Source: an uncultured Flavobacteriales bacterium (GTDB taxonomy: Bacteria; Bacteroidota; Bacteroidia; UBA10329). From it: a stretch of DNA of 44,349 bases. Shown here piece after piece: positions 332 to 21,887 of the stretch. The number at the start of each line of letters is the position of its first letter. Positions within the stretch are counted from its first letter, which is position 1. The notes beneath the pieces are model-generated. The model saw nothing but the letters and a program-made list of their open reading frames with translations. It searched no databases and had not been told where the DNA came from. The translations under genes and the position numbers were made by a program. The stretch is from NCBI GenBank assembly GCA_937900875.1, contig CALCGD010000150.1, positions 1-44,349 on the forward strand, given 5' to 3'.

Positions 332-1130
332 ATTGGATTTGATCTTTGAGTACCTCTGCGTGCTTTTTGGTAAGCAAGTGGTGTCCGGCATTTAGCATTA
401 TCACGCTAGCAGACTTGCAGTTATCGCCAGATAGCTTTTTAGCAAGTTTTGGATGGATTACTCGGTCGTTTATGCCAAAAACTAACGTGAGTTTCATGCG
501 ATAACGCCAAATTTTCTTTCTAACGTCATCTAAATTTGGCACTGTTTTCTTGAAAATTTGCCATGTGTCGTACACCTTTTGTCGCTTTTCCTTATTGCCC
601 ATTTGGCTAGTAACAAAATCATGAATTTTCGGATTCATTAATCTTGATTTCGCCAAAATCCAACTCGTTCCTAAAAACGGCTGCGGAAATCGAATAATTA
701 GCTTGAATAACAATCTTCCAATAACTGTATTCGTTGCAAATCCATAAAACGGGTTGACTTTTAATCCATCGGGTGCTATTAAAACAACTCTGTCAATTTT
801 ACCAGGCGCCAGTTCCACCATCTTCAAAACTACCTTTCCGCCAAGGCTAAAGCCAAAGAGGTTACATGATTTAACATCCGTTTCGATGAGAGCTTTCCCA
901 AGTAATTCTGCAAGCTCTCCTGGTTTTATAAAGCCTTTTTCTACGAACGTTTCTCCATGTAATGGTAGGTCAAAACTGAGAATTCGAGCATCAGGTCTAA
1001 GCGTTTTTAAAAAGTGATTTACCACCTCAGCCCCTTGACCAAAGCCATGAAATCCCAGCCAAACCTCGTCTCCTTTTTCACTGTCAAGATAACTCCAGTG
1101 TACTCGGCCTATTTTAATGATTTTTCGCAA
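330..1130 (-). CDS. Alpha/beta-hydrolase fold protein
   Basis: A 266-residue soluble alpha/beta-hydrolase of unknown substrate. Visible elements are the oxyanion-type HGFGQ near residues 28-32, the nucleophile elbow GFSLGG at 93-98 (Ser95), a late acid at Asp222 in GIND, and the catalytic His in GHH at 249-251. No signal peptide is seen, so it is probably cytoplasmic. A helical cap appears to lie between about 130 and 200. The gene converges with rpmH and shares its terminator. It is divergent from carB across a 110-base spacer that holds a TACCTTTG box on its strand. It could be an esterase, a thioesterase such as a MenH-like enzyme, or a C-C hydrolase; the sequence alone does not decide. 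Confidence 0.85.
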   Translation of the reverse strand: MRKIIKIGRVHWSYLDSEKGDEVWLGFHGFGQGAEVVNHFLKTLRPDARILSFDLPLHGETFVEKGFIKPGELAELLGKALIETDVKSCNLFGFSLGGKVVLKMVELAPGKIDRVVLIAPDGLKVNPFYGFATNTVIGRLLFKLIIRFPQPFLGTSWILAKSRLMNPKIHDFVTSQMGNKEKRQKVYDTWQIFKKTVPNLDDVRKKIWRYRMKLTLVFGINDRVIHPKLAKKLSGDNCKSASVIMLNAGHHLLTKKHAEVLKDQIQ

Positions 1131-1240: not shown

Positions 1241-4057
1241 ATGCCAAAAGATAATTCGATAAAACACGTTTTGATAATAGGCTCCGGACCAATAGTTATT
1301 GGACAGGCTTGTGAGTTTGATTATTCTGGTTCGCAGGCCTCCAGGTCTTTACGAGAAGAAGGAATTGAAGTGACTCTTATCAACTCAAATCCAGCAACCA
1401 TTATGACCGACCCTGTGACGGCTGATAATGTGTATCTGAAACCTCTTGAACCTAAAAGCATCGTTGAAATTCTGGAGGCGCATGATATTGACTGCGTTCT
1501 TCCTACAATGGGAGGTCAGACTGCCTTAAATCTTGCAATAAAATGCAAGGAGATGGGCATTTGGAAGAAATATGGTGTACGGATGATTGGGGTAGATGTA
1601 GAGGCGATTGAGGTGACTGAAGACCGCGAGAAGTTCCGAAAATTAATGGGTGAAATTGGAGTTGCTATGGCTCCGCAAACTACCGCCAAATCATTCCTAG
1701 AAGGAAAAGAAGTAGCACAGGAATTTGGATTTCCATTGTGTATTCGGGCTTCCTACACCTTGGGTGGAGCAGGAGCCGCCATTGTTTATGACCCCGCTGA
1801 GTTTGATAAGCAGTTAACGCGAGGACTTCATTTGTCTCCTATTCATGAGGTAATGATTGATAAAGCAGTTCTCGGCTGGAAGGAGTTTGAATTGGAGTTA
1901 CTTCGAGACAACAACGATAATGTTGTCATCATTTGTTCCATCGAGAATTTCGATCCGATGGGTATCCATACTGGTGATTCTATCACAGTAGCACCAGCTA
2001 TGACACTTAGTGATAAAACATATCAGCGAATGCGAGATATGGCAATTCACATGATGCGCTCCATCGGAAATTTTGCTGGCGGATGTAACGTTCAGTTTGC
2101 TGTGAGCGATGATGTGAATGAGGACATCATTGCGATTGAGATAAACCCACGGGTAAGTCGTTCTTCTGCTTTGGCTTCAAAAGCTACGGGATATCCAATT
2201 GCGAAGATTGCTGCCAAGTTGGCAATTGGTTACAATTTGGATGAATTGGATAATCAGATTACAAAAACGACATCAGCGTTTTTTGAGCCTACGTTGGATT
2301 ATGTAATTGTGAAAATTCCACGTTGGAACTTCGATAAATTCAAAGGGTCTAATAGAGAATTAGGACTTCAGATGAAGTCTGTTGGTGAGGTGATGGGAAT
2401 TGGTCGCACCTTTCAAGAAGCACTTCAAAAAGCTTGTCAGTCGCTTGAGATAACGAGAAACGGACTGGGTGCTGACGGCAAAGAACTCAAGAATCAAGAT
2501 GAGATTCTTCATAGCTTGAAACATGCAAGTTGGAACCGGTTGTTCCATATTTATGATGCCTTTAAAATGGGCATTCCAACTAAAACGATTCAGAAGATTA
2601 CCAGAATTGACACATGGTTCTTGGAACAAATACATGAGTTAATTGAGTTGGAAAATGAGATTCAGAGCTTCAAGCTCGATAATTTACCAAAGCCACTCCT
2701 TTACGAAGCGAAGCAAAAGGGTTATGCCGATAGGCAGATTGCTCACTTGCTTAATTGTTGGGAAAGTGAGGTGTTTAAAAAACGGCAAGAGTTCAATATC
2801 CAGCGAGTTTACAAACTAGTGGATACCTGTGCTGCCGAATTTCCAGCACAAACACCCTACTACTATTCAACTTTTGAAGACAAGAACGAAAGTGTTGTAA
2901 CCGACAAGAAGAAGATTGTTGTTCTAGGTTCAGGCCCAAATAGAATTGGGCAGGGAATTGAGTTCGATTACTGCTGTGTTCACGGGGTTTTAGCCGCCAA
3001 AGAATGTGGCTACGAAACCATTATGATTAACTGCAATCCAGAAACGGTTTCTACCGATTTTGATGTAGCTGATAAGCTCTATTTCGAACCTGTTTTCTGG
3101 GAACACATTTACGACATCATCCTTCATGAAAAACCTGAAGGAGTTATAGTTCAATTAGGTGGTCAAACCGCACTTAAGCTTGCCGAGAAACTTGAACGTC
3201 ACGGAATTAAAATCATCGGGACCGACTTTAAATCATTGGATTTAGCAGAGGATCGTGGGCGGTTTTCTGCGCTTTTAGCGGAAAACAACATTCCCTATCC
3301 AAAATTCGGAGTTGCGGAAGACGCTGACAAAGCGCTGGAGGTTTGTAAGGACCTCGGGTTTCCTCTTTTGGTTCGCCCTTCTTATGTGTTGGGAGGTCAG
3401 AATATGAAAATTGTGATCAACGAGCAGGAATTAGAAAATCACGTTGTCAATCTTTTAAAGGATATTCCAGGAAATAGAATTCTTTTGGATCATTTTCTCG
3501 AAGGCGCTATTGAGGCGGAAGCCGATGCGATTTGTGATGGAGAAGATGTCTACATCTTAGGAGTGATGGAACATATTGAACCCGCTGGAATCCATTCTGG
3601 AGATAGCTATGCGTTGCTTCCTTCGTTCGACTTAAGTGATAACGTGCTAGAACAGATTGATCGATATACGCGCATCATTGCGATGAAATTGAACACAATA
3701 GGACTCATCAACATTCAGTTTGCGGTGAAGGACGAGGTGGTTTATATCATTGAGGCAAATCCACGTGCATCACGAACAGTTCCTTTCATCGCAAAAGCTT
3801 ACCGCGAACCTTATGTGAACTACGCTACAAAGGTTATGATGCGCGAGAAGATGTTAAAAGACTTTAAATTCAATCCTTACAAAAAAGGGTACGCAATAAA
3901 GATTCCTGTATTCTCATTTGAGAAATTCCCCGATGTAAATAAGGAATTAGGCCCTGAAATGAAGTCGACTGGAGAAGCAATTCGGTTCATCGATGACCTC
4001 GATGATGAGTTCTTCAGAGAAATATATTCTGAGCGTAACCTATATCTTAGCCGATAG
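1241..4057 (+). CDS. carB: Carbamoyl-phosphate synthase large chain, without the C-terminal regulatory domain
   Basis: The large subunit makes carbamoyl phosphate from bicarbonate, ATP and ammonia supplied by CarA, feeding arginine and pyrimidine synthesis in the cytoplasm. The two homologous ATP-grasp halves are clear. The first opens with GSGPIVIGQACEFDYSG near residue 14 and the second with GSGPNRIGQGIEFDY near 562; both carry the INPRVSR / ANPRASR metal-site motifs. At 938 residues the protein ends where the second ATP-grasp unit ends, so the MGS-type allosteric domain (about residues 937-1073 in E. coli) is absent. From memory, CarB of about this size is common in the phylum. carA is not in the window. 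A DUF4834 gene follows after 14 bases. Confidence 0.96.
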   Translation: MPKDNSIKHVLIIGSGPIVIGQACEFDYSGSQASRSLREEGIEVTLINSNPATIMTDPVTADNVYLKPLEPKSIVEILEAHDIDCVLPTMGGQTALNLAIKCKEMGIWKKYGVRMIGVDVEAIEVTEDREKFRKLMGEIGVAMAPQTTAKSFLEGKEVAQEFGFPLCIRASYTLGGAGAAIVYDPAEFDKQLTRGLHLSPIHEVMIDKAVLGWKEFELELLRDNNDNVVIICSIENFDPMGIHTGDSITVAPAMTLSDKTYQRMRDMAIHMMRSIGNFAGGCNVQFAVSDDVNEDIIAIEINPRVSRSSALASKATGYPIAKIAAKLAIGYNLDELDNQITKTTSAFFEPTLDYVIVKIPRWNFDKFKGSNRELGLQMKSVGEVMGIGRTFQEALQKACQSLEITRNGLGADGKELKNQDEILHSLKHASWNRLFHIYDAFKMGIPTKTIQKITRIDTWFLEQIHELIELENEIQSFKLDNLPKPLLYEAKQKGYADRQIAHLLNCWESEVFKKRQEFNIQRVYKLVDTCAAEFPAQTPYYYSTFEDKNESVVTDKKKIVVLGSGPNRIGQGIEFDYCCVHGVLAAKECGYETIMINCNPETVSTDFDVADKLYFEPVFWEHIYDIILHEKPEGVIVQLGGQTALKLAEKLERHGIKIIGTDFKSLDLAEDRGRFSALLAENNIPYPKFGVAEDADKALEVCKDLGFPLLVRPSYVLGGQNMKIVINEQELENHVVNLLKDIPGNRILLDHFLEGAIEAEADAICDGEDVYILGVMEHIEPAGIHSGDSYALLPSFDLSDNVLEQIDRYTRIIAMKLNTIGLINIQFAVKDEVVYIIEANPRASRTVPFIAKAYREPYVNYATKVMMREKMLKDFKFNPYKKGYAIKIPVFSFEKFPDVNKELGPEMKSTGEAIRFIDDLDDEFFREIYSERNLYLSR

Positions 4058-4071
4058 AGTACTGATTTGAT

Positions 4072-4341
4072 ATGCTACTTAAGGTAATTCTGTTCTTGGT
4101 TGTTTTCTACTACCTCTGGAAAGTGTTGTTCAGACTCTTCTTTCCAGTGGTAGCAAAAAAGGTGGTAGAAAAGGCCCAGCAGAACATGGAGGAGAAAATG
4201 CGCCAAGCCTACGAAGGCCAAAATGGCTATTCAGATTTTCAGGAAGGAGATGTAGTTATTCAGAAAGGAGCCGAAAAAAAGAAAGAAGGTGTTTCAGACA
4301 CGGAAGGCGATTATGTTGACTTTGAGGAAATCAAAGAGTAG
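4072..4341 (+). CDS. Small membrane-anchored DUF4834-type protein
   Basis: An 89-residue protein with one N-terminal hydrophobic segment (about residues 2-27). It is followed by a lysine- and glutamate-rich tail ending in DYVDFEEIKE. This layout, with the acidic YxDFEEI end, fits the DUF4834 family of Bacteroidota, whose function is unknown. It is probably anchored in the inner membrane with a soluble cytoplasmic tail. It lies 14 bases after carB and 42 bases before the YfhO-type gene, so the three may be co-transcribed. The family call rests on pattern and neighbourhood. Confidence 0.75.
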   Translation: MLLKVILFLVVFYYLWKVLFRLFFPVVAKKVVEKAQQNMEEKMRQAYEGQNGYSDFQEGDVVIQKGAEKKKEGVSDTEGDYVDFEEIKE

Positions 4342-8174: not shown

Positions 8175-11100
8175 ATGGCTCTAAGGCACTTTCTTGACAT
8201 TCCTAAATTAGTTGCTACAACCGTAGTGTGCTTTGTGGTTATCTGTAATGTTCTTGGTCAAAACCCGTTAATTGTATTCGAACAACCCATTAATGAGTTC
8301 GAAGGTGGAGGAATTCCAGACCTCGGTAATGGAGATTGGTTTGGTTATGCAGTCGCATCTATCGGGGATATCAATCAAGATGGATTTATGGACCTCGCGG
8401 TTGGAGCGCCTTACGATGACGATGGTGGATCAAACAAAGGAGCGCTCTACATTCTATTCATGGATGCGAGTGCACAGGTTGGGTCGTATCAAAAAATAAG
8501 CGCTATAGCAGGTGGGTTTCAAGGCAATTTGGTGGAGGAAAGCTTCTTCGGCTCTGAAATAACCAATATTGGCGATTTAGATGGAAATGGCGTTGAAGAT
8601 CTTGTTATTGGCGCAAGCGGAGATGACGATATAGGAGGTTGGGCTGGTGCTCTCTGGGTTCTTTTTATGAATTCTGACGGAACAGTTTTAACCGAACAGA
8701 AAATTAGCGCTTCCGTAGGGTGGTCCGGTTCGCCACTTGGCACTTCCGATAGATTTGGAAAGGGATTAGACTCTATAGGAGATATAAATGGTGATGGTGT
8801 GATAGACATAATGGCTGGAGTTCATGAAGATGACGATGGCGGCAACAATCACGGGGCCGCGTATGTTCTGTTTCTCAATGCAAATGGAACCGTTCAAAGC
8901 CACGTTAAAATCTCAGAAATTACTCCTGGTTTCAATAGTACCTTAACCAATAATGCAGGTTTGGGTTGGTCTATAGCGTGCCTTGGAGATTTAGATAATA
9001 ATGGCACAACGGAAGTGCTGGTAAGTGCACCTTTTGATGATGTTTTGGCCGTAGACGATGGCAGAGTTTACATTATGTCAATATCCAGTACAGGAAACTT
9101 AGTGTCTAATACCGAGATAAGTGCAGCGGTTTCTCCCATTCTTGCTGCCGAAATAAGTGCTGGAGATAAGTTTGGGTCAGCAGTGTCAAGAGGTTTTAGT
9201 ATGTGGTGCGATGATGCTGCAGATATTGCAGTTGGATCCATGAATTACGGTTCGCCATCGGTCGGTGGCGTCCTCCTAATTGACCTTAATTCTTTCTTCG
9301 AAGTCCAAGCAGTACAGGTAATCACCGAAGGCCAAACTAATTTTCAAGACAATCTTAATTCGGGTGACAAATTTGGAAGAGCACTGGATTTAGTAACCGA
9401 TTATGACGGAAACGGTTATCCTGATTTGTTTGTTGGCGATATGGTTTTTGGCAGCTCTGGAGGTACTTGGCTGCTATCGCTCGGCCCAGCGGAAGCACCA
9501 TCGGTATTTTCAGATTCTATTCAATTGTGCGAAAACTCATCGTTTCAGTTGTTTCCCGCCATCCCTGTGGATGACATTCTTTGGAGCACCGGAGCTACTT
9601 CAGACACCATTCTGGTTCAACAATCCGGTACAGTCTGGATAGAAGGTGTTGCTGCAGGTTGCACAATTAATGACACAATCAACGTAATCATTAGTCCAAT
9701 TCCCGAACTCAGCTTAGGCAACGATACCTTGGTCTGTGACTCTTTGCTGCTGAATACCTCTGAATCAAATTATCAAACTAATTGGAGCACAGGAGCCCAA
9801 CTTCAATCAATTTCGGTCAGTGAGTCAGGCACTTACTGGGTGACAATTGATGGGGTATGCGGTGTTTTTTCAGATACCATTCATATTGAAATCCCAGAAG
9901 ACCTCAGCTTCAGTTTAGGTGCGGATACCATTATTTGTGAAGGAAATAATCTATTGCTTCAACCAACGCTTTTTTCAGGAAATGCGGATGTTTTTGAATG
10001 GTACAATGGTTCATCCTTGGAGCAAAACACAGTCTCTATTGAAGGTGATTTCTGGTTAACAATTAGCGAGCAATGTTCGATTGAAACGGACACCATCCAT
10101 GTTGACTTAGGATACAACCCAGTCATTTCAATTCCTGCCGACACTTTGGTTTGCGCCACTTCCATAGACATTCTTGCTGAGGCGGAAACTTACGGCAGTT
10201 ACACTGCAACCTGGAGTACAGGTGACGTTGGCTTATCTGCAACCATAGATTCTTCTGGAACATACGTTTTAACGCTCAACGATATTTGCGGGTCAGCTAC
10301 AGATTCTATTGAGGTCAGCATGCTTAATGCTGTATTTATCCAACTTCCCAACGACACCACCATTTGTGATGGAGATGTCATAGATTTAACGCCAGATGCT
10401 TCTTGGTTTGGAATTCTAGATTTTCTGTGGTCTAGTGGAAGTGGAGATACAACCATAACCGCAATGGCCGCTGGCGAATATTGGATTGAAGCTGTCACAA
10501 ACTGTGGTTCTATATCAGACACAATGCTCTTATTTACTTCTGGTGGTCCTTATTTTTCTTTAGGCTCAGATACTGTGCTTTGCGCAGAAAACCTCGAAAT
10601 CCAACCTCAAGGTTCTTTTATTGGCGAAGTGGAATATGACTGGAGTTCTAACGAAATAACCAACACAATTACCGTTGATACTTCTGGACTATATATTCTT
10701 GAGGCAACAGATGCATGTGGAAGTTTTTTAGATACTATTCATGTAGAACTTATTCAGGGGGATGTCAATATTAATCTGCCAGATTACGCTTTTGTCTGCA
10801 CAGGAGACAGCATTCTATTGACCGCAGAAGTTTCCAATTTAAACGCCCAAGTGTTTTGGAGCACAGGCGAGATTGGAGAATCGATAACTGTCTCAAACTC
10901 TTATTGGTACAGTGCAAGTGTATCTGAGCAATGTGGCGGAGATGCTGACACCACATATGTTTATCGAGTGGATAATGAACCCATTTATACGTCATTAGCC
11001 AATTTGGCCTGTGGTTCAGCAACCATTCTTAAAATAGATAGTGTAAGACAATATTCAGACTGGTTGGCCCCACTTCAACCAGCCTATTTGTGGAGCACTG

Positions 11101-11471
11101 GATCTAATGATACAATTATCACTGTGTCGGAATCTGGAGATTATTGGCTTGAGCAAACAGGGTATTGTGGTGTTGACTCAGCTTTTTTCTCTGTAGAGTT
11201 AGACGATTGTTGGTCCAGTAGTGTTCCGAACGTTATTACACCAAATGGCGATGGATTGAATGACATATTTGTCCCTTTTTCTGTCGAGTGTAGTTCGTGT
11301 GCATATCGATTGCGCGTTTACAATAGGTGGGGGATACAAGTTTTCGATGAAGTAAATACTCCATGGGATGGAATTTTGAAAACCAACAGGCCGTCTGTTT
11401 CCGGGGTGTACTTTTACATCTTAAATGTGGGAGAAACCACCCATACTGGCTATTTGGAAGTGTTACCTTGA
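8175..11471 (+). CDS. Secreted FG-GAP/repeat protein with type IX (type B) sorting domain
   Basis: A 1098-residue predicted surface or secreted protein. A signal peptide ends near residue 29 (VLGQ). Residues about 50-437 hold roughly six FG-GAP (integrin-alpha-like) blades with calcium-loop patterns such as GDINQDGFMDLAVGAP and GDLDGNGVEDLVIGA. Residues about 440-1016 hold eight degenerate repeats of 65-75 residues. Each has a DTxxC start, a WSTG-like core, a SGxYW strand, a second Cys (CG) and DTIxV. The last 82 residues (from VPNVITPNGDGLNDIF) are a gliding-motility-associated C-terminal domain, the type B signal for the type IX secretion system. A role in adhesion is likely but inferred. 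A TTACTTTG box at 8141-8148 may be part of its promoter. Confidence 0.93.
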   Translation: MALRHFLDIPKLVATTVVCFVVICNVLGQNPLIVFEQPINEFEGGGIPDLGNGDWFGYAVASIGDINQDGFMDLAVGAPYDDDGGSNKGALYILFMDASAQVGSYQKISAIAGGFQGNLVEESFFGSEITNIGDLDGNGVEDLVIGASGDDDIGGWAGALWVLFMNSDGTVLTEQKISASVGWSGSPLGTSDRFGKGLDSIGDINGDGVIDIMAGVHEDDDGGNNHGAAYVLFLNANGTVQSHVKISEITPGFNSTLTNNAGLGWSIACLGDLDNNGTTEVLVSAPFDDVLAVDDGRVYIMSISSTGNLVSNTEISAAVSPILAAEISAGDKFGSAVSRGFSMWCDDAADIAVGSMNYGSPSVGGVLLIDLNSFFEVQAVQVITEGQTNFQDNLNSGDKFGRALDLVTDYDGNGYPDLFVGDMVFGSSGGTWLLSLGPAEAPSVFSDSIQLCENSSFQLFPAIPVDDILWSTGATSDTILVQQSGTVWIEGVAAGCTINDTINVIISPIPELSLGNDTLVCDSLLLNTSESNYQTNWSTGAQLQSISVSESGTYWVTIDGVCGVFSDTIHIEIPEDLSFSLGADTIICEGNNLLLQPTLFSGNADVFEWYNGSSLEQNTVSIEGDFWLTISEQCSIETDTIHVDLGYNPVISIPADTLVCATSIDILAEAETYGSYTATWSTGDVGLSATIDSSGTYVLTLNDICGSATDSIEVSMLNAVFIQLPNDTTICDGDVIDLTPDASWFGILDFLWSSGSGDTTITAMAAGEYWIEAVTNCGSISDTMLLFTSGGPYFSLGSDTVLCAENLEIQPQGSFIGEVEYDWSSNEITNTITVDTSGLYILEATDACGSFLDTIHVELIQGDVNINLPDYAFVCTGDSILLTAEVSNLNAQVFWSTGEIGESITVSNSYWYSASVSEQCGGDADTTYVYRVDNEPIYTSLANLACGSATILKIDSVRQYSDWLAPLQPAYLWSTGSNDTIITVSESGDYWLEQTGYCGVDSAFFSVELDDCWSSSVPNVITPNGDGLNDIFVPFSVECSSCAYRLRVYNRWGIQVFDEVNTPWDGILKTNRPSVSGVYFYILNVGETTHTGYLEVLP

Positions 11472-14411: not shown

Positions 14412-15467
14412 TTGAAAAACGGGAAAATCATATACTCACAGAATGTGAAATCCTCGTTTGCAAGGAAAGATTTAGAGGTCTTAGAAAGCGAGTTTGATGT
14501 GGTGAGATTCGAGTTTATTCCAAGGAAGAAATTTCTTGTTCCGCTCTTGTTTGTTCATCAGTTTTTCTTCCTTCTTTTTCATCTACCAACTGCTAAGGCT
14601 ACGGTTACCTTATTTGGCGGTTATCATTCATTTTTACCGGCTCTTTTTTCACGGCTGTTCAATAAACCCGCAATTATTGTGCTGGGCGGAAGTGATTGTG
14701 TCTCCTTTCCATCTATCAACTACGGTAATTTCAACAACGCTCTGCAAGGAGCTTTTACCCGATGGTCGCTCAATTTCGCAACGCACATTGCCCCGGTTGA
14801 TGAAAGCTTAAAGTTCACAGAGTACGGTTACACAGATAGTGACTTGCCAAAGCAAGGCTACACTGTTTTTTGCCCGAAGGCTACCGCGCCATGCACTACT
14901 ATTCATTTTGGATATGATTCAGAATTATTTCAAAAAAAGACAGATAAGAATCCAGGTTCATTTCTTACGGTTGGCTATTTGAATCCCGCCAATTTTTACA
15001 GAAAAGGAGTTGATCTAATTTTTGATCAGGCGATAAGAAGACCTGAGAATACTTTCACCATTATTGGAGGAACAAAAGAGGATTTACCCGAAGGAACTTC
15101 GGTTCCAGACAATGTAAATCTGATTGCCTCCGTTACATATGACGAGCTAACAGCACATTACTCTACACACCAATTTTACTTCCAATTGTCTATGATGGAG
15201 GGGTTTCCTAGTGCCATTTGCGAAGCAATGTTGTGCGAATGCGTGCCTATCGGTTCCAATGTGGCTGCCATTCCTAATATAGTTGGAGAGACGGGTTTCT
15301 TGTTGCTGAAAAAAGACACCAATCAGCTTCATGAATTGGTTGAAAAAGCGTTGCAATCTGCTGTTACCGAACTAGGCTTAGAAGCTCGCAAAAGAATCAT
15401 GAAAAGATATCCGAAAGAAGAGCGGATGAAACTACTGGAACTGGTAAAGACTGAGGTAAAAAACTAG
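14412..15467 (+). CDS. GT4-type glycosyltransferase
   Basis: A 351-residue GT-B fold enzyme. The C-terminal donor half contains FLTVGYLNP and the signature MEGFPSAICEAMLCECVPIG around residues 260-280, with the family Glu-x7-Glu pair (EGFPSAICE). The N-terminal acceptor half has a hydrophobic stretch near residues 43-60 that may touch the membrane. The only plausible start is TTG at 14412; the protein then begins MKNGKIIYS, a normal first strand. Its TAG stop lies in a CTAG palindrome that also gives the stop of the convergent DUF2147 gene. Donor and acceptor are unknown. Confidence 0.88.
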   Translation: MKNGKIIYSQNVKSSFARKDLEVLESEFDVVRFEFIPRKKFLVPLLFVHQFFFLLFHLPTAKATVTLFGGYHSFLPALFSRLFNKPAIIVLGGSDCVSFPSINYGNFNNALQGAFTRWSLNFATHIAPVDESLKFTEYGYTDSDLPKQGYTVFCPKATAPCTTIHFGYDSELFQKKTDKNPGSFLTVGYLNPANFYRKGVDLIFDQAIRRPENTFTIIGGTKEDLPEGTSVPDNVNLIASVTYDELTAHYSTHQFYFQLSMMEGFPSAICEAMLCECVPIGSNVAAIPNIVGETGFLLLKKDTNQLHELVEKALQSAVTELGLEARKRIMKRYPKEERMKLLELVKTEVKN

Positions 15468-15898
15468 CTATCGGCAGGTAACCAAGTCTGAGTCCTGTAT
15501 AGAAAAGAAATATAGCCTCGCACCTTCAGCTTGCCGTCTTCCACCCACAATTTACATCTATAAACCTTCCCGTTTTCTGGGTCCAAAATATCTCCATCTT
15601 CATATTCAGAACCATCTTTAACCATATTCCGGATAACCTCTAAGCCAACAATTGGTTTCATGTAACGAGGGTCGTCAGAAGCACATTCTTCACAAACAGG
15701 ATCTGGTTTTTCGGGATCAAAAAGCTCCAACACCATTCCAAATAACTTTCCGTTTTTCTCAGAGATTTCCACCACTGATTTGGTTTTTCCTGTGTTGTCG
15801 TCAATAGTTTTCCATTTGCCGATTGGCGAGGTTTGCTGAGCGAACCCATTAAGAATAAATAGTGCAGAAACAATAAATAAAGAGAAGAATGTTTTCAT
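15464..15898 (-). CDS. Exported DUF2147 family protein
   Basis: A 144-residue small exported protein. A signal peptide (MKTFFSLFIVSALFILNGFA) is followed by a compact domain that starts PIGKWKTIDDNTGKTKSVVE and contains the turn GSEYEDGDILDPENGKVY and the closing GYISFLYRTQTW. These are the marks of DUF2147, a beta-rich periplasmic family of unknown function. A CxxC pair (VCEEC) lies in a loop near residue 70. It is the last gene of the leftward operon, 12 bases after the M1 peptidase gene, and overlaps the convergent GT4 gene by four bases. Confidence 0.87.
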   Translation of the reverse strand: MKTFFSLFIVSALFILNGFAQQTSPIGKWKTIDDNTGKTKSVVEISEKNGKLFGMVLELFDPEKPDPVCEECASDDPRYMKPIVGLEVIRNMVKDGSEYEDGDILDPENGKVYRCKLWVEDGKLKVRGYISFLYRTQTWLPADS

Positions 15899-15910: not shown

Positions 15911-18900
15911 TTAGAATGCTTGATTAATACCAATAATCCATCGAAAAGCCCAAGGCTCAGGGTCAAGTGCAGGAGTACGATTAAGGAAAAATGGCATATC
16001 AAAACGTATAGTTAACGGCTTTGCTTTCTCTAAAACACCCCATTCCTTTATGGTAATTGTGGTGCCTATTCCTGCATCTGCTCTTGGTGCCGCAAAAGTG
16101 AAATCATCACCAGGTTGGTTGGTGCTTATTAAGCCAATATCTCCGAAAATGTAAAGGTCAATATCCAACCAATTTTTAGTCCACCAAGGGCGAAGTCCAA
16201 AGATTTCATCAAATTCCAGTTCGGCATTAATAGATGCACCGCTATTACCTGCATAGGCCAATACGATATCGCCATCAACATTTTCTGGCGCCAAATAACC
16301 TACGTATCCACGCAAATTAAGGCCACCGCCAGCATGTAAATGGTTGGAGCTTTCTTGAATAGTTGCCCATTCGGATGGGAAAATTCCTGCCGACCGTGTG
16401 AATTTATTGTACATCATTTCCTCTGGATTGGCTCCTGCCAGATAAAGTTGAGATTCGGGCGCCCAATTTGACCCAGTTCCTAGCTGCGCGAAAAATCGTG
16501 TATTCAGTTTGAGTCTCCATAAATTGGTGTTGTTCAGGGCTTCAAGTTTGAGCTGATGATAATCGTAATCGCTACCTAAAGAAGAACTTCGTAATCCTAC
16601 GTTCAATTCCCCTTTTCCGGATTGATATCGATACGTGTGTTTTACTTCTAAGTTGAAGGAGTTGTTCCACATATCTGCTTCCCAAGTACTGCGGTTAAGT
16701 AGGTAGGCAATGTCTCTGTCTTGCTGTCTGTAAAGAGCTCGGTAGTACACTCGAAACGTGGTCGTTTTCTTTCTATTCTGCTTCTCTAGCCCAAGTTCTG
16801 CATTGTACAATCCATCTAATATGCGCCCAGAAAAATCAATGTTACTGTTCTTCCAATATCTAGATAGAGACGTTTTGTAATCGAACAAAACGGAAATAGG
16901 CATAAACTCGTTGAGTTTAACATCGGACGGAACATCCCATTGTGCCAAGCCAGAATTGGCCCATAAATACAGATTGAATTTGTGGTTCAGGTTAAAGTGA
17001 CTACCGTTTAAGTGTACACCAAATTTGAATCCATCATAGCCATTGTACCAAATATCAGGTCGCGCAAAAATCTCATACAATCGCCAATCTGACCGATTTC
17101 GTATTTGACTATCAAATTCAAAATCAATGGCAGAAGCCGTTGTGTTGTTCAACATGTTTACATCGGCTAAGCGATGTGTTGGGTCAATTTCAACTTTCTT
17201 GATTCCTTCTGGAATGTTGATTTCAACTTTGTGCGTCTTGTTTAAATCGCCAAATCCTGTCCATTTTGGTAGAACCGTTGCATTGGTTTCTTTGGTGAAC
17301 CAACTATTTGAAATATGATATTCATGAACATCATCGTTCTGGTCGGTCACTACAAAGTCGATTGGCATTTGCATGCCACCTTTCCGTTTAAATCGAACAA
17401 TATAATTTCCTTTTTCGGTTCCTTTTCTCACACCAGAAATTGAATAGTCCACCTGCGTATTGCTTTCAAGCCATTGGTCAAAAAACCAGTTTAAGTCAAC
17501 TTTGGTATATCTAATAAATGAGCTTCTGAAATCCTCAAAATACGGGTGACAAAACCTCCATTCATTAAAATAATGCTGCATTGCATTAGCAAATAACGTG
17601 TCGCCAAGCACGTATTCTAGATTGTACAACATGGTTGCCGTTTTGTAATAAACGTGCCCGTAACCATGGTAATAGTTGTCTTCAAACTGATCGGAATGGG
17701 TGTTCAATCGTGGGTCGCTAAACTGAGTTGCGCTACGCATAAAACCGTAGTATATTTCATCATCAATGGCTCTCGATGGCTTTTCAAATCGTCTTCTGTA
17801 CCAATTTTCTGCCGGTTCTTCTATTACAGTATCACCGTCAATTTTTTTCATGCCATACACGGTTAAGTATTGGGTAAACCCCTCATCTAATGCCGCTCGG
17901 TACGTTTCATTGTTTCCCACCTGACCATAAAACCAATTATGTCCTATTTCATGTACAAGTAGACTTCTATAATCAGGGTCGCTACCGCCATCTAGCGTTA
18001 GCATGGGGTATTCCATACCATCTCTAGCATCTGCCACAATCATTTTATGGTACTGATACATGCCAATGCCTTCAGAAAAAACTTTGATGATTTTAGCGGT
18101 ATAATCTGCTGCATTTTGCCAACCAGCCGCATGACTTTCTTGAGCCAATGAGTAGCATTTGACGCCATTCCATTCCGCTTCGCCAATTCTGTAGTTTGGG
18201 TCTGCCGTAAAGGCGAAATCGTGCACATTTTCAGCATGATATACCCAGGTTTTGTGTTCGGTGCTATCGTAAGGAATTATTATGGATGCTTTTTCTCCCC
18301 AAGGCTTGTCTGCAAAGTTTTTAATGTCCAGCTTTTTCCGTAGCTCCTCGGGCAATACATTTTCCCGGTTCAGCAAATTACCCGTAGCTTCTACGATGTA
18401 GTTGCTAGCAAAAGAGAGTGCGACATCAAACGTTCCAAAATCACCATAGAATTCACTCCCAAGATGCTGGTCAGTAGTCCAACCAAACTTTCTATCGTAA
18501 ACTGAAATTCGAGGATACCAGTGCACCCCATCGTAATGAGTGAACCCTTTAGAGTTAAATAGCTTCATTCTTCTGCCCATCGAGCCTTGGTCGAAGTATG
18601 TTTTGAACTCAAATTGAAACTCAGTTTTCGAATTGGGGAGTAGAGGTTCACTCAAAATAAGTTTGAGAATAGTGTTGTCTAGTTCTTGTTTTACGGGTTT
18701 AAAATTGACAGAAACCGCAACGATTTCAGTTCCTTTCCCTTGTTTTTCGTACTTGCCAAAATGATGGTTTTGACCTTTCGCCTTGTCATTTTTGTCAGCG
18801 TAAGAATTTGGTTGAAACGCATTTTGATACAAATGGAAATAGACTTCGTATAAAGTATCAGGAGAATTGTTCCAATAACTCAGTTCCATTTTGGCGGAAA

Positions 18901-19102
18901 TGATGTCCGTTTTCTCGTCAACATTTGCCGCAATTCTATAGTGCACGTCTTGCTGCCAATAATCAGTGTTTGGGGTTCTATTCTTCCAATAAATTGGGTT
19001 GTCTGCTGAGCGAAAGGTATTGGGTGGCGAAAGCGGGTTGTATTGACTCCAAACCAAAAAGGAGTGTAAAATGAGGCAAAGTAGGATGGTATACTTTTTC
19101 AA
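15911..19102 (-). CDS. M1 family metallopeptidase with a C-terminal barrel-like extension
   Basis: A 1063-residue exported gluzincin. A signal peptide ends near residue 19 (VWSQ). The M1 catalytic module covers about residues 40-640: GMEYP at 362-366, the zinc motif HEIGH at 384-388, the third ligand Glu407 at the expected spacing, and a probable catalytic Tyr near 485 (HVYYKT). Residues about 660-1063 are unusual for M1. They are rich in alternating amphipathic strands, contain LNLRGY near 928-933 and IFGDIGLIS near 985-993, and end in a strand closing with Phe. This resembles an Omp85/surface-antigen-type outer-membrane barrel. The start is a TTG, forced by the signal peptide; it overlaps the stop of the yihY-type gene. 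Confidence 0.92.
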   Translation of the reverse strand: MKKYTILLCLILHSFLVWSQYNPLSPPNTFRSADNPIYWKNRTPNTDYWQQDVHYRIAANVDEKTDIISAKMELSYWNNSPDTLYEVYFHLYQNAFQPNSYADKNDKAKGQNHHFGKYEKQGKGTEIVAVSVNFKPVKQELDNTILKLILSEPLLPNSKTEFQFEFKTYFDQGSMGRRMKLFNSKGFTHYDGVHWYPRISVYDRKFGWTTDQHLGSEFYGDFGTFDVALSFASNYIVEATGNLLNRENVLPEELRKKLDIKNFADKPWGEKASIIIPYDSTEHKTWVYHAENVHDFAFTADPNYRIGEAEWNGVKCYSLAQESHAAGWQNAADYTAKIIKVFSEGIGMYQYHKMIVADARDGMEYPMLTLDGGSDPDYRSLLVHEIGHNWFYGQVGNNETYRAALDEGFTQYLTVYGMKKIDGDTVIEEPAENWYRRRFEKPSRAIDDEIYYGFMRSATQFSDPRLNTHSDQFEDNYYHGYGHVYYKTATMLYNLEYVLGDTLFANAMQHYFNEWRFCHPYFEDFRSSFIRYTKVDLNWFFDQWLESNTQVDYSISGVRKGTEKGNYIVRFKRKGGMQMPIDFVVTDQNDDVHEYHISNSWFTKETNATVLPKWTGFGDLNKTHKVEINIPEGIKKVEIDPTHRLADVNMLNNTTASAIDFEFDSQIRNRSDWRLYEIFARPDIWYNGYDGFKFGVHLNGSHFNLNHKFNLYLWANSGLAQWDVPSDVKLNEFMPISVLFDYKTSLSRYWKNSNIDFSGRILDGLYNAELGLEKQNRKKTTTFRVYYRALYRQQDRDIAYLLNRSTWEADMWNNSFNLEVKHTYRYQSGKGELNVGLRSSSLGSDYDYHQLKLEALNNTNLWRLKLNTRFFAQLGTGSNWAPESQLYLAGANPEEMMYNKFTRSAGIFPSEWATIQESSNHLHAGGGLNLRGYVGYLAPENVDGDIVLAYAGNSGASINAELEFDEIFGLRPWWTKNWLDIDLYIFGDIGLISTNQPGDDFTFAAPRADAGIGTTITIKEWGVLEKAKPLTIRFDMPFFLNRTPALDPEPWAFRWIIGINQAF

Positions 19103-20088
19103 GATCGATCTCCTTTTTCTATTTCTTCTTCTAATGAAATCCCAAGAGACCGTTTCCCTATTTCAATTTCGCGAAGTTTAGCATCTTCTATACTGGCATT
19201 CAATTCAAATCCGATCAATAGGGCCATCGAATTAAGCAGCATCCAAAGCATTACGATTACCAAAGTACCGATAGAACCATAAAGTTTATTGTAAGTTCCG
19301 AAGTTATCTACGAAGTAGGTAAATCCTACTGAAGTAACCAATACTAGCACTGTTGCCAATGATGATCCAGCGGAAAAAAATCTCCAGCTGGTTTGTTTCG
19401 CTGGCCCGAGAAAATAGAGCACTGATATGGCAAAAAACAGCAGCGTAATAATGATAATGTAGCGCCCAAGGTTTAATGAAAAACGTACAAATCCATCTTC
19501 TACCCACCCTTTCTGGGCGAGGTAATGCATTCCTAGCTGACCAAATATGATTAACCCAATAGCCAAAACCACAAAGAATACTAGAATGAGGGTGATTAAA
19601 AGGGCAAAACCACGTTGGATAAAATAGGGTCTGCTTTCAATTGTATGATATGTGGTGTTGAAACTGTCGATTAAAGCACTTACTCCATTAGTTGAAAAAT
19701 ACATTGCTGAAATCACGGTTACGGAAAGTAAACCACCTCGCTGACGGGTAATAATATCTTCAATCGTTTCACTTATTGAAGAGTAAGCGTTTTCTGGTAA
19801 CATGACTTTCATTATGGCCATTAATTGTTCCTGAAAGCCATCGATTGGTATGTAAGCTATTAGTGTAAAAAAGAAGATAATAGCCGGGAATATGGCAAGG
19901 ATAAAGTTGAATGCAACAGCACTGGCTCTAAGGTTTAGCCATCCTTCTTGCATGCCTTTTATGAAAAATGCCATTACATCGTAAAGCGGCAGCCCGTCAA
20001 ATCCCGGTATTCGAATTTCTTTAGAAAGCCGAAGCAGATTCCTAATTATTGGAAGCTGTAATATTTTAACAATGAGTTTTCTGACCAT
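19099..20088 (-). CDS. YihY/BrkB-type inner-membrane protein
   Basis: A 329-residue membrane protein of the YihY/UPF0761 family (once called ribonuclease BN). The family start MQEGWLNLRASAVAFNFILA lies near residues 46-65, followed by the FFFTLIAYIP helix. Further helices are at about 155-185, 205-225, 235-255 and 265-295, with the usual NxYGSIG-like turn (YNKLYGSIGTLVIVMLW). The molecular role is unsettled; it is not RNase BN. It sits one base after nadC and overlaps the M1 gene by four bases, so it belongs to the same operon. The charged cytoplasmic tail LEEEIEKGDRS closes it. Confidence 0.92.
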   Translation of the reverse strand: MVRKLIVKILQLPIIRNLLRLSKEIRIPGFDGLPLYDVMAFFIKGMQEGWLNLRASAVAFNFILAIFPAIIFFFTLIAYIPIDGFQEQLMAIMKVMLPENAYSSISETIEDIITRQRGGLLSVTVISAMYFSTNGVSALIDSFNTTYHTIESRPYFIQRGFALLITLILVFFVVLAIGLIIFGQLGMHYLAQKGWVEDGFVRFSLNLGRYIIIITLLFFAISVLYFLGPAKQTSWRFFSAGSSLATVLVLVTSVGFTYFVDNFGTYNKLYGSIGTLVIVMLWMLLNSMALLIGFELNASIEDAKLREIEIGKRSLGISLEEEIEKGDRS

Positions 20089-20089
20089 C

Positions 20090-20923
20090 CTAGGTCGCTT
20101 TCAGGCTAAGGTCGAGACTTTTAATGTTATGCGTTAACGCACCAACAGAAATGTAATCAACACCAGACAGAGCATGAGCTCGAATGGTGGTTTCGGTAAT
20201 GCCACCAGAAGCTTCAGTTTCGTACTTACCAGCAATTAACTCAACTGCTTTCTTCTCATCATCAGGATGAAAGTTATCAAGCATAATACGATGAAACCCT
20301 CCGACTGCCAATGCTTGGTTTAGTTCGTTAAAATCGCGGACTTCAATCTCAATTTTAAGGTTTTTCCCAATGCTGGCAAGGTGAGTAACGGTTCTAGAAA
20401 TGGCTTGTTCAATTCCTCCCGCCATGTCAATATGATTGTCCTTAATCATCACCATATCAAACAATCCAAAACGATGGTTTACCCCTCCGCCAATCTTTAC
20501 CGATAGTTTTTCCAATTCCCGAAGGAGGGGAGTTGTTTTTCGTGTGTCCAACAATTTGGCATTAGTGCCAGCAATCAACTTGTTGAGATTTGCCGCTTTT
20601 GTAGCAATCCCACTCATGCGTTGCATGAAATTAAGCACCAACCGTTCTGCCTTTAAGATAGAATGAGACGAACCTTCAACGGTTAGGATAATGTCTCCGA
20701 CACGTATCTCCTCGCCATCACAAATAAGAATTTCAACCTTGAGGTCTGCATCAACTTTTAAGAAAATTTGCTTTGCTAAATCGACTCCCGCTATTACGCC
20801 ATCTTCCTTAACTAACAACTTCGCTTTCCCTTTTGCGTGTTTTGGAATACAGGCGTCTGATGTATGGTCGCCATCACCAATATCTTCCCGAAGAGCTTCG
20901 TCAATAATTTGATCAACGGTCAT
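20090..20923 (-). CDS. nadC: Nicotinate-nucleotide pyrophosphorylase (carboxylating)
   Basis: The enzyme forms nicotinate mononucleotide from quinolinate and PRPP in de novo NAD synthesis. The 277-residue length is normal. Signatures include EDIGDGDHTSD near residue 13, QRMSGIAT at 101-108, the quinolinate-binding DTRKTTP at 126-132, HR at 150-151 and KDNH at 161-164. The barrel ends with EASGGIT and DYISVGALTH. It lies eight bases after the DUF4783 gene and one base before the yihY-type gene. nadA and nadB are not in the window. Confidence 0.97.
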   Translation of the reverse strand: MTVDQIIDEALREDIGDGDHTSDACIPKHAKGKAKLLVKEDGVIAGVDLAKQIFLKVDADLKVEILICDGEEIRVGDIILTVEGSSHSILKAERLVLNFMQRMSGIATKAANLNKLIAGTNAKLLDTRKTTPLLRELEKLSVKIGGGVNHRFGLFDMVMIKDNHIDMAGGIEQAISRTVTHLASIGKNLKIEIEVRDFNELNQALAVGGFHRIMLDNFHPDDEKKAVELIAGKYETEASGGITETTIRAHALSGVDYISVGALTHNIKSLDLSLKAT

Positions 20924-20931
20924 AGAGGCTG

Positions 20932-21321
20932 CTAATCGTTTGCTTCAAAACGTAATTGTTGTACCCGCAAAACGCCATTTACATCTTTGGTTAAAACATA
21001 CGTTCTATACGTAGTGTTGGCCGTTGTGAGGGTGCCAATGGCATATTGTGCTCCATCTGGAGATTTTCCCCTATGAATTACCTGATAGTTGGTCACTTTA
21101 TCATTCGAGAAGAAATCCTTCACAATAAGCTCTGCTTGAGCTTTGCTGTAGCTGGCTTCCTTGGTGCCAATTGTCAGTTCAACTTTGGTGTCAAAGTGTT
21201 TTGAAAGTTCCTTATAGTTGCCCAATTTGATGGCGCCACTAATATTTTCGTTGGCATCCTGGGCAAATCCCACGGATAAGGCCAAACAGAGTATGATGAA
21301 TATGGAAGTTAATTTCTTCAT
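20932..21321 (-). CDS. Exported DUF4783 family protein
   Basis: The likely start is the ATG at 21321, giving 129 residues that begin with the signal peptide MKKLTSIFIILCLALSVGFA. The frame stays open for 18 codons further upstream (to 21375), but that extension would hide the signal peptide. The mature part, with IKLGNYKELSKHFDTKVEL and a closing LRVQQLRFEAND, fits the Bacteroidota DUF4783 family. That family has an NTF2-like or lipoprotein-like alpha+beta fold and unknown function. It is the first gene of the operon with nadC, and a TAACTTAG box on its strand (21334-21327) may be its -7 element. It is divergent from rlmH, a neighbourhood often seen in this phylum. Confidence 0.8.
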   Translation of the reverse strand: MKKLTSIFIILCLALSVGFAQDANENISGAIKLGNYKELSKHFDTKVELTIGTKEASYSKAQAELIVKDFFSNDKVTNYQVIHRGKSPDGAQYAIGTLTTANTTYRTYVLTKDVNGVLRVQQLRFEAND

Positions 21322-21416
21322 GTTTGCTAAGTTACCGATTCGCAACAATCGCGCCACGTCAAGTTGTTGCGGCACAAAATAAATCTATACTTTGACCAAC
21401 ACCAAAAGAGAATGCC

Positions 21417-21887
21417 ATGAAGTTGTGCCTTTTTCTTGTAGGAGAAACCGATGATGCTGAGTTAAAAGGCGCCATAGCTCGGTATGTTAAGCGTTTAGAC
21501 CACTATTGCACTTTCGAAACCGAGGTGTTAAAAGCGCCCAAACAGTTTAAAAAACTAGCTCAGGCAGAATTAAAGATAGCAGAAGGAAAATTGATTTTGG
21601 ACAGTTTGACGGCACAAGATTTTTTGGTTTTGCTTGATGAGAAAGGAACCGAATTTGGTTCAATTGCCTTTTCTGACAAACTCCAGAAATGGTTGAATGC
21701 CGGGCATAGACGAATTGTTTTTCTCGTTGGTGGGGCATTTGGCTTTTCAGACGAAGTTTATCAACGAGCAAATTTTAAACTTGGGTTATCAAAAATGACT
21801 TTAACCCATCAAATGGTACGCCTGTTTTTTACTGAACAACTTTATCGAGCGTTTACCATTTTAAAGAATGAAAAATATCATCACTAG
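21417..21887 (+). CDS. rlmH: 23S rRNA (pseudouridine1915-N3)-methyltransferase
   Basis: RlmH, a SPOUT-fold methyltransferase, methylates pseudouridine 1915 in helix 69 of 23S rRNA after the ribosome has assembled. The 156-residue length is normal. The SAM-binding knot region is visible as FLVGGAFGFSDEV around residues 101-113 and LSKMTLTHQMVRLFFTEQLYRA around 124-145. The C-terminus is the usual NEKYHH. The spacer before it carries TATACTTTG at 21386-21394, an imperfect -7 element. Its TAG lies in a CTAG palindrome shared with the stop of the convergent GT4 gene. Confidence 0.97.
   Translation: MKLCLFLVGETDDAELKGAIARYVKRLDHYCTFETEVLKAPKQFKKLAQAELKIAEGKLILDSLTAQDFLVLLDEKGTEFGSIAFSDKLQKWLNAGHRRIVFLVGGAFGFSDEVYQRANFKLGLSKMTLTHQMVRLFFTEQLYRAFTILKNEKYHH

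Follow-up and report, generated by a model that had tools for sequence, protein, structure and literature searches.

An M1-family peptidase joined to a candidate Omp85-type outer-membrane barrel in Bacteroidota

A single gene in the window, the 44,349-nucleotide stretch of DNA analysed here, encodes a signal peptide, an M1 zinc peptidase and a C-terminal barrel. This architecture, the intact active site, the conserved motifs and the existence of a wider family were established by computation. The reading favoured here, which as a whole we hold to be probable, is of a secreted M1 zinc peptidase built on a POTRA-less, 16-strand Omp85-type barrel, which would be locked by its lid and would trim peptides in the periplasm. 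The plan is in part a known one, that of an Omp85-type barrel; what is new is that an M1 peptidase takes the usual place of the POTRA domains. No description of an M1–Omp85 fusion was found in a search of the open-access literature. The barrel is invisible to routine annotation because the family libraries (Pfam, NCBIfam) recognise only the M1 half. The features are collected in Table 1.

Table 1. Features of the M1-barrel gene and of its immediate neighbours, with positions in the window
Feature	Residues	Positions	Strand	Basis
Whole gene, M1 peptidase plus barrel	1063 aa	15911..19102	-	open reading frame; full-length homologues
Signal peptide	1-19	19046..19102	-	sequence; similar N-termini in homologues
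M1 N-terminal and catalytic domains	~45-548	17459..18970	-	PF01433; Foldseek
GMEYP	362-366	18005..18019	-	G362, E364, Y365, P366 invariant
HEIGH, zinc and catalytic residues	384-388	17939..17953	-	H384, E385, H388 invariant
E407, third zinc ligand	407	17882..17884	-	invariant
Y485, putative catalytic tyrosine	485	17648..17650	-	invariant in 64 homologues
Domain III-like beta-sandwich	~553-640	17183..17446	-	strand pattern of model
Predicted 16-strand outer-membrane barrel	676-1063	15914..17077	-	AlphaFold2; alternation; profile tests
Predicted strands 1-8	676-687, 691-702, 706-716, 736-745, 753-762, 765-775, 781-792, 811-826			
Predicted strands 9-16	829-840, 847-861, 864-879, 955-963, 979-993, 1007-1018, 1030-1040, 1056-1061			
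Long loop L6, strands 11/12 (75 residues)	880-954	16241..16465	-	AlphaFold2
LRGY, Omp85 L6 signature motif, inside L6	930-933	16304..16315	-	conservation; PMC4490367, PMC12611786
FGDIG (F986-x-D988-x-G990), on strand 13	986-990	16133..16147	-	PMC4490367
Last strand with C-terminal Phe (RWIIGINQAF), beta-signal-like	1054-1063	15914..15943	-	
DUF2147 protein, neighbour		15464..15898	-	
YihY/BrkB-family membrane protein, neighbour		19099..20088	-	

The gene and its peptidase half

The host genome is that of a member of the Bacteroidota, 3.6 Mb in size. The gene starts with a TTG codon, which overlaps the stop codon of the upstream yihY/brkB-like gene, and the segment 15911-17125 corresponds to residues 660-1063 together with the stop codon. 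Inspection places signal-peptide cleavage before Q20, and there is no lipobox cysteine. The protein matches PF01433 (Peptidase_M1) in Pfam with an E value of 1.1e-14 and 55 bits, against a curated cut-off of 27.7. The 50 best PDB matches of the whole model in Foldseek are all M1 aminopeptidases and all fall on the M1 part, so that this search is no test of the barrel.

HEXXH-X18-E is present in 64/64 homologues. The earlier note had read a signal peptide and a complete M1 module with HEIGH at 384-388 and Glu407, and its residue numbers are exact. GMEYP, which from knowledge of M1 enzymes we take to be the equivalent of the GAMEN substrate-binding motif, keeps an invariant Glu, whilst the Asn is replaced by Tyr. 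Y485 is the probable catalytic tyrosine by motif similarity to PepN, and, judged by residue conservation in the 64 homologues, the active site is complete. The protein shares HEXXH-X18-E, a probable catalytic Tyr and domains I–III with PepN, ERAP1, IRAP and LTA4H; it has GMEYP, a candidate GAMEN-like motif, where they have GAMEN, and a barrel in place of helical domain IV.

Neither a type A nor a type B C-terminal sorting domain of the type IX secretion system (T9SS) was found in the protein with Pfam and NCBIfam, and on this ground it is not classed as T9SS cargo. Elsewhere in the window (8175-11471) a secreted repeat protein of 1098 aa comes near the threshold for the T9SS type B sorting domain TIGR04131, with 33.4 bits against 35.

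The C-terminal barrel

Supplied with an alignment of 64 homologues (A1), AlphaFold2 gave a model of mean pLDDT 88.7 and pTM 0.83, in which M1 domains I–II are followed by the beta-sandwich (553-640) and then by a barrel of 16 predicted strands covering residues 676-1061. The alignment was needed for a confident model, the tail as a single sequence giving a pLDDT of 29.6. No POTRA domain was found with Pfam, and in the model the M1 part runs into the barrel. Hydrophobic/polar alternation over the 16 predicted strands, as a mean over the 64 homologues, scored 50.0 against 21.5 for shuffled sequences, a score reached by none of 5000; for the M1-domain strands of the model the figures were 29.4 and 21.1, and 138 of 5000 shuffles scored at least as much. 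The terminal residue, F1063, is Phe in 60/64 homologues and Leu in 4/64. Eight barrel residues (R931, F986, D988, G1011, G1013, D1035, P1037 and R1054) are invariant in A1, and since invariant residues are present in both halves of the protein, the M1 half and the barrel are under joint selection.

In FhaC, TamA and BamA both of the motifs seen here occur in the same places, L6 between strands 11 and 12 and strand 13, where an Arg–Asp salt bridge forms the 'lid lock' (PMC4490367). The Omp85 consensus is (V/I)RG(Y/F) for the L6 motif and (F/G)xDxG for that of strand 13. The L6 motif of Flavobacterium johnsoniae BamA is likewise LRGY (PMC12611786). Alongside the invariant R931, F986 and D988, the residues G932, Y933 and G990 are nearly invariant in the 64 homologues. 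Strand 14 bears G1011 and G1013, and it is on this strand that BamA and TamA have the conserved glycine which receives the Phe of FxDxG (PMC4490367). An RG[YFW] motif with an FxDxG-like motif after it at barrel spacing was found in 37/38 relatives and 29/32 Bacteroidota Omp85 proteins, in 0/20 PorP and 0/19 FadL proteins, and in 97/7600 shuffled tails.

The 404-residue tail as a single sequence has no Pfam match and no relevant NCBIfam match, and neither the single sequence nor narrow profiles gave a barrel match in Pfam or the PDB. Family profiles were needed because the single sequence matches no Omp85 model. Against a Bacteroidota Omp85 profile, the narrow family barrel profile gave P values from 0.0089 to 1.7e-4; the wide profile, with distant M1-barrel relatives added, reached P 4.1e-7 (probability 92.8%), in an alignment which spans LRGY through FxDxG to strand 14. 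The wide profile gave P 0.39 against PorP and 0.25 against FadL. Searched against 247 genomes, barrel profile A3 retrieved M1 fusions and free-standing barrels, followed by a small number of frames of 733-763 aa (E 3e-7 to 8e-6). The three of these that were checked are all Omp85, and the two of the three that were compared with NCBIfam both match TamL, one below the cut-off as a truncated reading. The best PDB matches of A3 are to BamA (E 0.022), and PF01103 is matched by two A3 members (best 0.0043).

These separate lines, each modest, are different in kind and agree, and they support an Omp85-type barrel. The earlier note had proposed such a barrel fused to the M1 module and had suggested a search by structure prediction for 12-16 strands; the confident 16-strand model and the profile links to Omp85 bear it out. 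Its alternating strands and terminal Phe are both present, its LNLRGY lies at exactly 928-933, and its D15-like end resolves into LRGY, FGDIG and the terminal strand, the L6, strand-13 and C-terminal features of Omp85. The profile match to Omp85/D15 which it anticipated was obtained with family profiles, but not with the single sequence. The reading that the tail consists of soluble beta-sandwich domains found no supporting point; the model, the strand alternation and the terminal aromatic beta-signal all argue against it, and its probability is close to nil. Convergence of a 16-strand barrel from another family upon Omp85-like features is very improbable: sequence similarity is indeed low and limited to the final third of the barrel, as convergence would allow, but each of the two separate motifs occupies its proper element, one the loop and the other the strand, their key residues are invariant, the reverse search with A3 retrieves Omp85 proteins, and the non-Omp85 barrels PorP and FadL give no signal.

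Relatives and gene order

Scanning one genome for each species yielded at least 578 candidate loci, of which the best 80 were kept. Nearly all of these best 80 are full length, with 49-75% identity by best segment, and they come from Flavobacteriales, Chitinophagales and other Bacteroidota. By sequence comparison this is a conserved family rather than a one-off, with close relatives in Flavobacteriales and Chitinophagales and distant fusions across the phylum. At 15911-21887 the window has in order a 156-aa gene (21417, on the opposite strand), the nadC-like gene (20090), the yihY/brkB-like gene (19099) and the M1-barrel gene, nadC being a name that we take from our own reading of the sequence. 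The order nadC, yihY, M1-barrel is found in about 35 of the 80 loci, many of the 80 ending at contig ends, and its recurrence points to vertical inheritance rather than mobility. The yihY/brkB-like neighbour is conserved, whilst the DUF2147 gene is kept beside the M1-barrel gene in few relatives only.

In a tree of the M1 domain, the distribution of tail and no tail needs three changes. The window's genome carries two further M1 genes. One (L224) encodes 620 residues of M1 without a tail; the other (L184; G000:C52, ORF 1313-4315) encodes an M1 protein of 1000 aa whose tail is homologous to the barrel (group profile 97.5%, P 7.8e-12). Many members of the L184 group have an FxDxG-like strand, the group has no clear LRGY, and about 10 residues extend beyond the last strand. 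Similar proteins occur in many members of the class (L188-L201); the 'barrel_RGY' labels of L191, L194 and L197 in the M1 tree probably reflect RG[YF] matches by chance.

Omp85-type barrels that stand alone, without POTRA, measure about 400-455 aa and have a signal peptide (L254:1483-2781, L258:1483-2676 and L260-L267) occur in nearly all sampled genomes of one family (f23); such barrels are also found in f21 beside a fusion. They have no Pfam match and carry GGANLRGY with FYDAG or similar. The f23 genomes with a free-standing barrel also encode, at another locus, an M1 protein that lacks a barrel; the two genes were side by side in 0/21 genomes. In an unrooted barrel tree the free-standing barrels form one clade (100), which branches with the window's clade (97) among the fusions; the 'standalone' labels of L003 and L252 in this tree are wrong, arising from a domain-cut artefact and a contig edge. 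Given this position, the M1 half has probably been lost in that clade, as far as an unrooted tree allows. Two further proteins (L204:1059-4169 and L220:2059-5889, 1036 and 1276 aa) are Omp85 proteins with POTRA domains and a long extra N-terminus, most of it with no convincing Pfam assignment.

Membrane face, role and known systems

With the N-terminus in the periplasm, the predicted strands give eight outer loops totalling 151 aa and seven inner turns totalling 45 aa. Longer outer loops than inner turns are the usual asymmetry of such barrels. This orientation puts L6 on the outer side, as required, and because the strand number is even both chain ends would be periplasmic. In PlpD, re-examined in 2024, the patatin domain is periplasmic (PMC11116518), and an F on strand 13, as in BamA and TamA, goes with a closed, kidney-shaped barrel, as against the G (GxDxG) of the wider FhaC translocases (PMC4490367). 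Because of loop lengths, even strand number, PlpD and the strand-13 F, the M1 domain is placed in the periplasm, and the peptidase is probably held at the inner face of the outer membrane.

From these features we infer the lid lock, the periplasmic face and a role in peptide trimming. Sec would export the protein by means of its signal peptide, and BAM would insert the barrel. L6 would fold into the lumen, where R931 of LRGY would lock to D988 of FGDIG on strand 13, and the pore would therefore be closed. With an even number of strands and a chain that goes into the barrel on its periplasmic side, the M1 domain would stay periplasmic, just beneath the outer membrane; the barrel would occupy the chain position of helical domain IV in soluble M1 aminopeptidases. 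There the M1 domain would most likely trim peptides that have been imported, or pieces of envelope proteins that have failed. Our best guess is that the protein is most likely a periplasmic aminopeptidase or oligopeptidase tethered to the outer membrane; that GMEYP retains its Glu suggests binding of free peptide N-termini rather than endopeptidase action.

The main rival, albeit a doubtful one, keeps the same anatomy and periplasmic site and assigns a quality-control role, in which the barrel engages assembling outer-membrane proteins and the peptidase removes those that fail. Known Omp85 barrels with FxDxG are insertases (PMC4490367), BepA, an M48 peptidase at the E. coli BAM, offers a precedent (PMC8423444), and vertical inheritance beside nadC and yihY suits a housekeeping function. 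However, a POTRA domain that could receive clients is missing, the conserved GMEYP Glu suggests free-N-terminus binding rather than an endopeptidase, and the description of the F. johnsoniae BAM complex reports no M1 protein (PMC12611786). Export of the M1 domain to the cell surface by the barrel, in the manner of type Vd autotransport and with external peptides as substrates, is improbable. PlpD was first so described and the barrel is Omp85-type (PMC4104836), but the PlpD passenger has since been shown to be periplasmic (PMC11116518), the motif is the FxDxG of BamA and TamA and not the GxDxG of FhaC translocases (PMC4490367), and residues 640-676, modelled at high confidence, give no sign of a disordered cleavage linker. 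Unlikely, too, is a Bacteroidota Omp85 subfamily with a peptidase replacing POTRA, in which the barrel would recognise or open to substrates and the periplasmic M1 domain would cut them, the modules being split into separate genes in one clade.

PlpD (Pseudomonas aeruginosa) and FplA (Fusobacterium), of type Vd, likewise have an enzyme N-terminal to a 16-strand Omp85 barrel, and the comparison with PlpD drawn in the earlier note holds good, now pointing to a periplasmic enzyme (PMC11116518). Their enzyme is a phospholipase, with POTRA between enzyme and barrel, whereas the window's protein has a peptidase and no POTRA. Type Vd is defined by a patatin passenger, in whose place M1 stands here, by POTRA, and by a passenger outside the cell, against which the predicted topology speaks. 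BepA is also a zinc peptidase at the periplasmic face of the outer membrane, but belongs to M48, has no barrel of its own and associates non-covalently with the E. coli BAM. BamM, a BAM subunit of Bacteroidota, was considered as the M1-barrel protein and ruled out, being a surface lipoprotein with a PPI fold (PMC12611786).

Insertion and translocation are the activities for which Omp85 proteins are known, but PlpD showed that some of them have a periplasmic enzyme instead, and such activity is not known for every member. If the favoured reading is true, a second enzyme class, a zinc peptidase, sits on Omp85 barrels in a family widespread in Bacteroidota; such barrels would then serve repeatedly as anchors in the membrane or as partners of enzymes, and a peptidase would be built in at the inner face of the outer membrane. 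For the latter we know of no precedent.

The 2014 survey of Heinz and Lithgow distinguished ten Omp85 subgroups, including patatin, WD40 and 'Metallo' (PMC4104836). The criterion of at least one POTRA domain does not hold for its 'noNterm' subgroup (PMC4104836), whose barrel is POTRA-less as here but lacks an enzyme domain, and which the free-standing L254 and L258 resemble. Because POTRA is absent, we class the window's protein among Omp85-type barrel proteins rather than with the classical POTRA-Omp85 proteins. 'Metallo' proteins also join an N-terminal enzyme domain to an Omp85 barrel and are not among the POTRA-bearing clusters (PMC4104836). Their N-terminal domain is PF00149, however, whereas that of the window's protein is PF01433, a true peptidase family. 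PF00149 we take to be the calcineurin-like metallophosphoesterase family, and 'Metallo' is for this reason not the M1-barrel family. The label 'metalloprotease' for the PF00149 subfamily (PMC4104836, again in PMC11116518) looks like a repeated slip.
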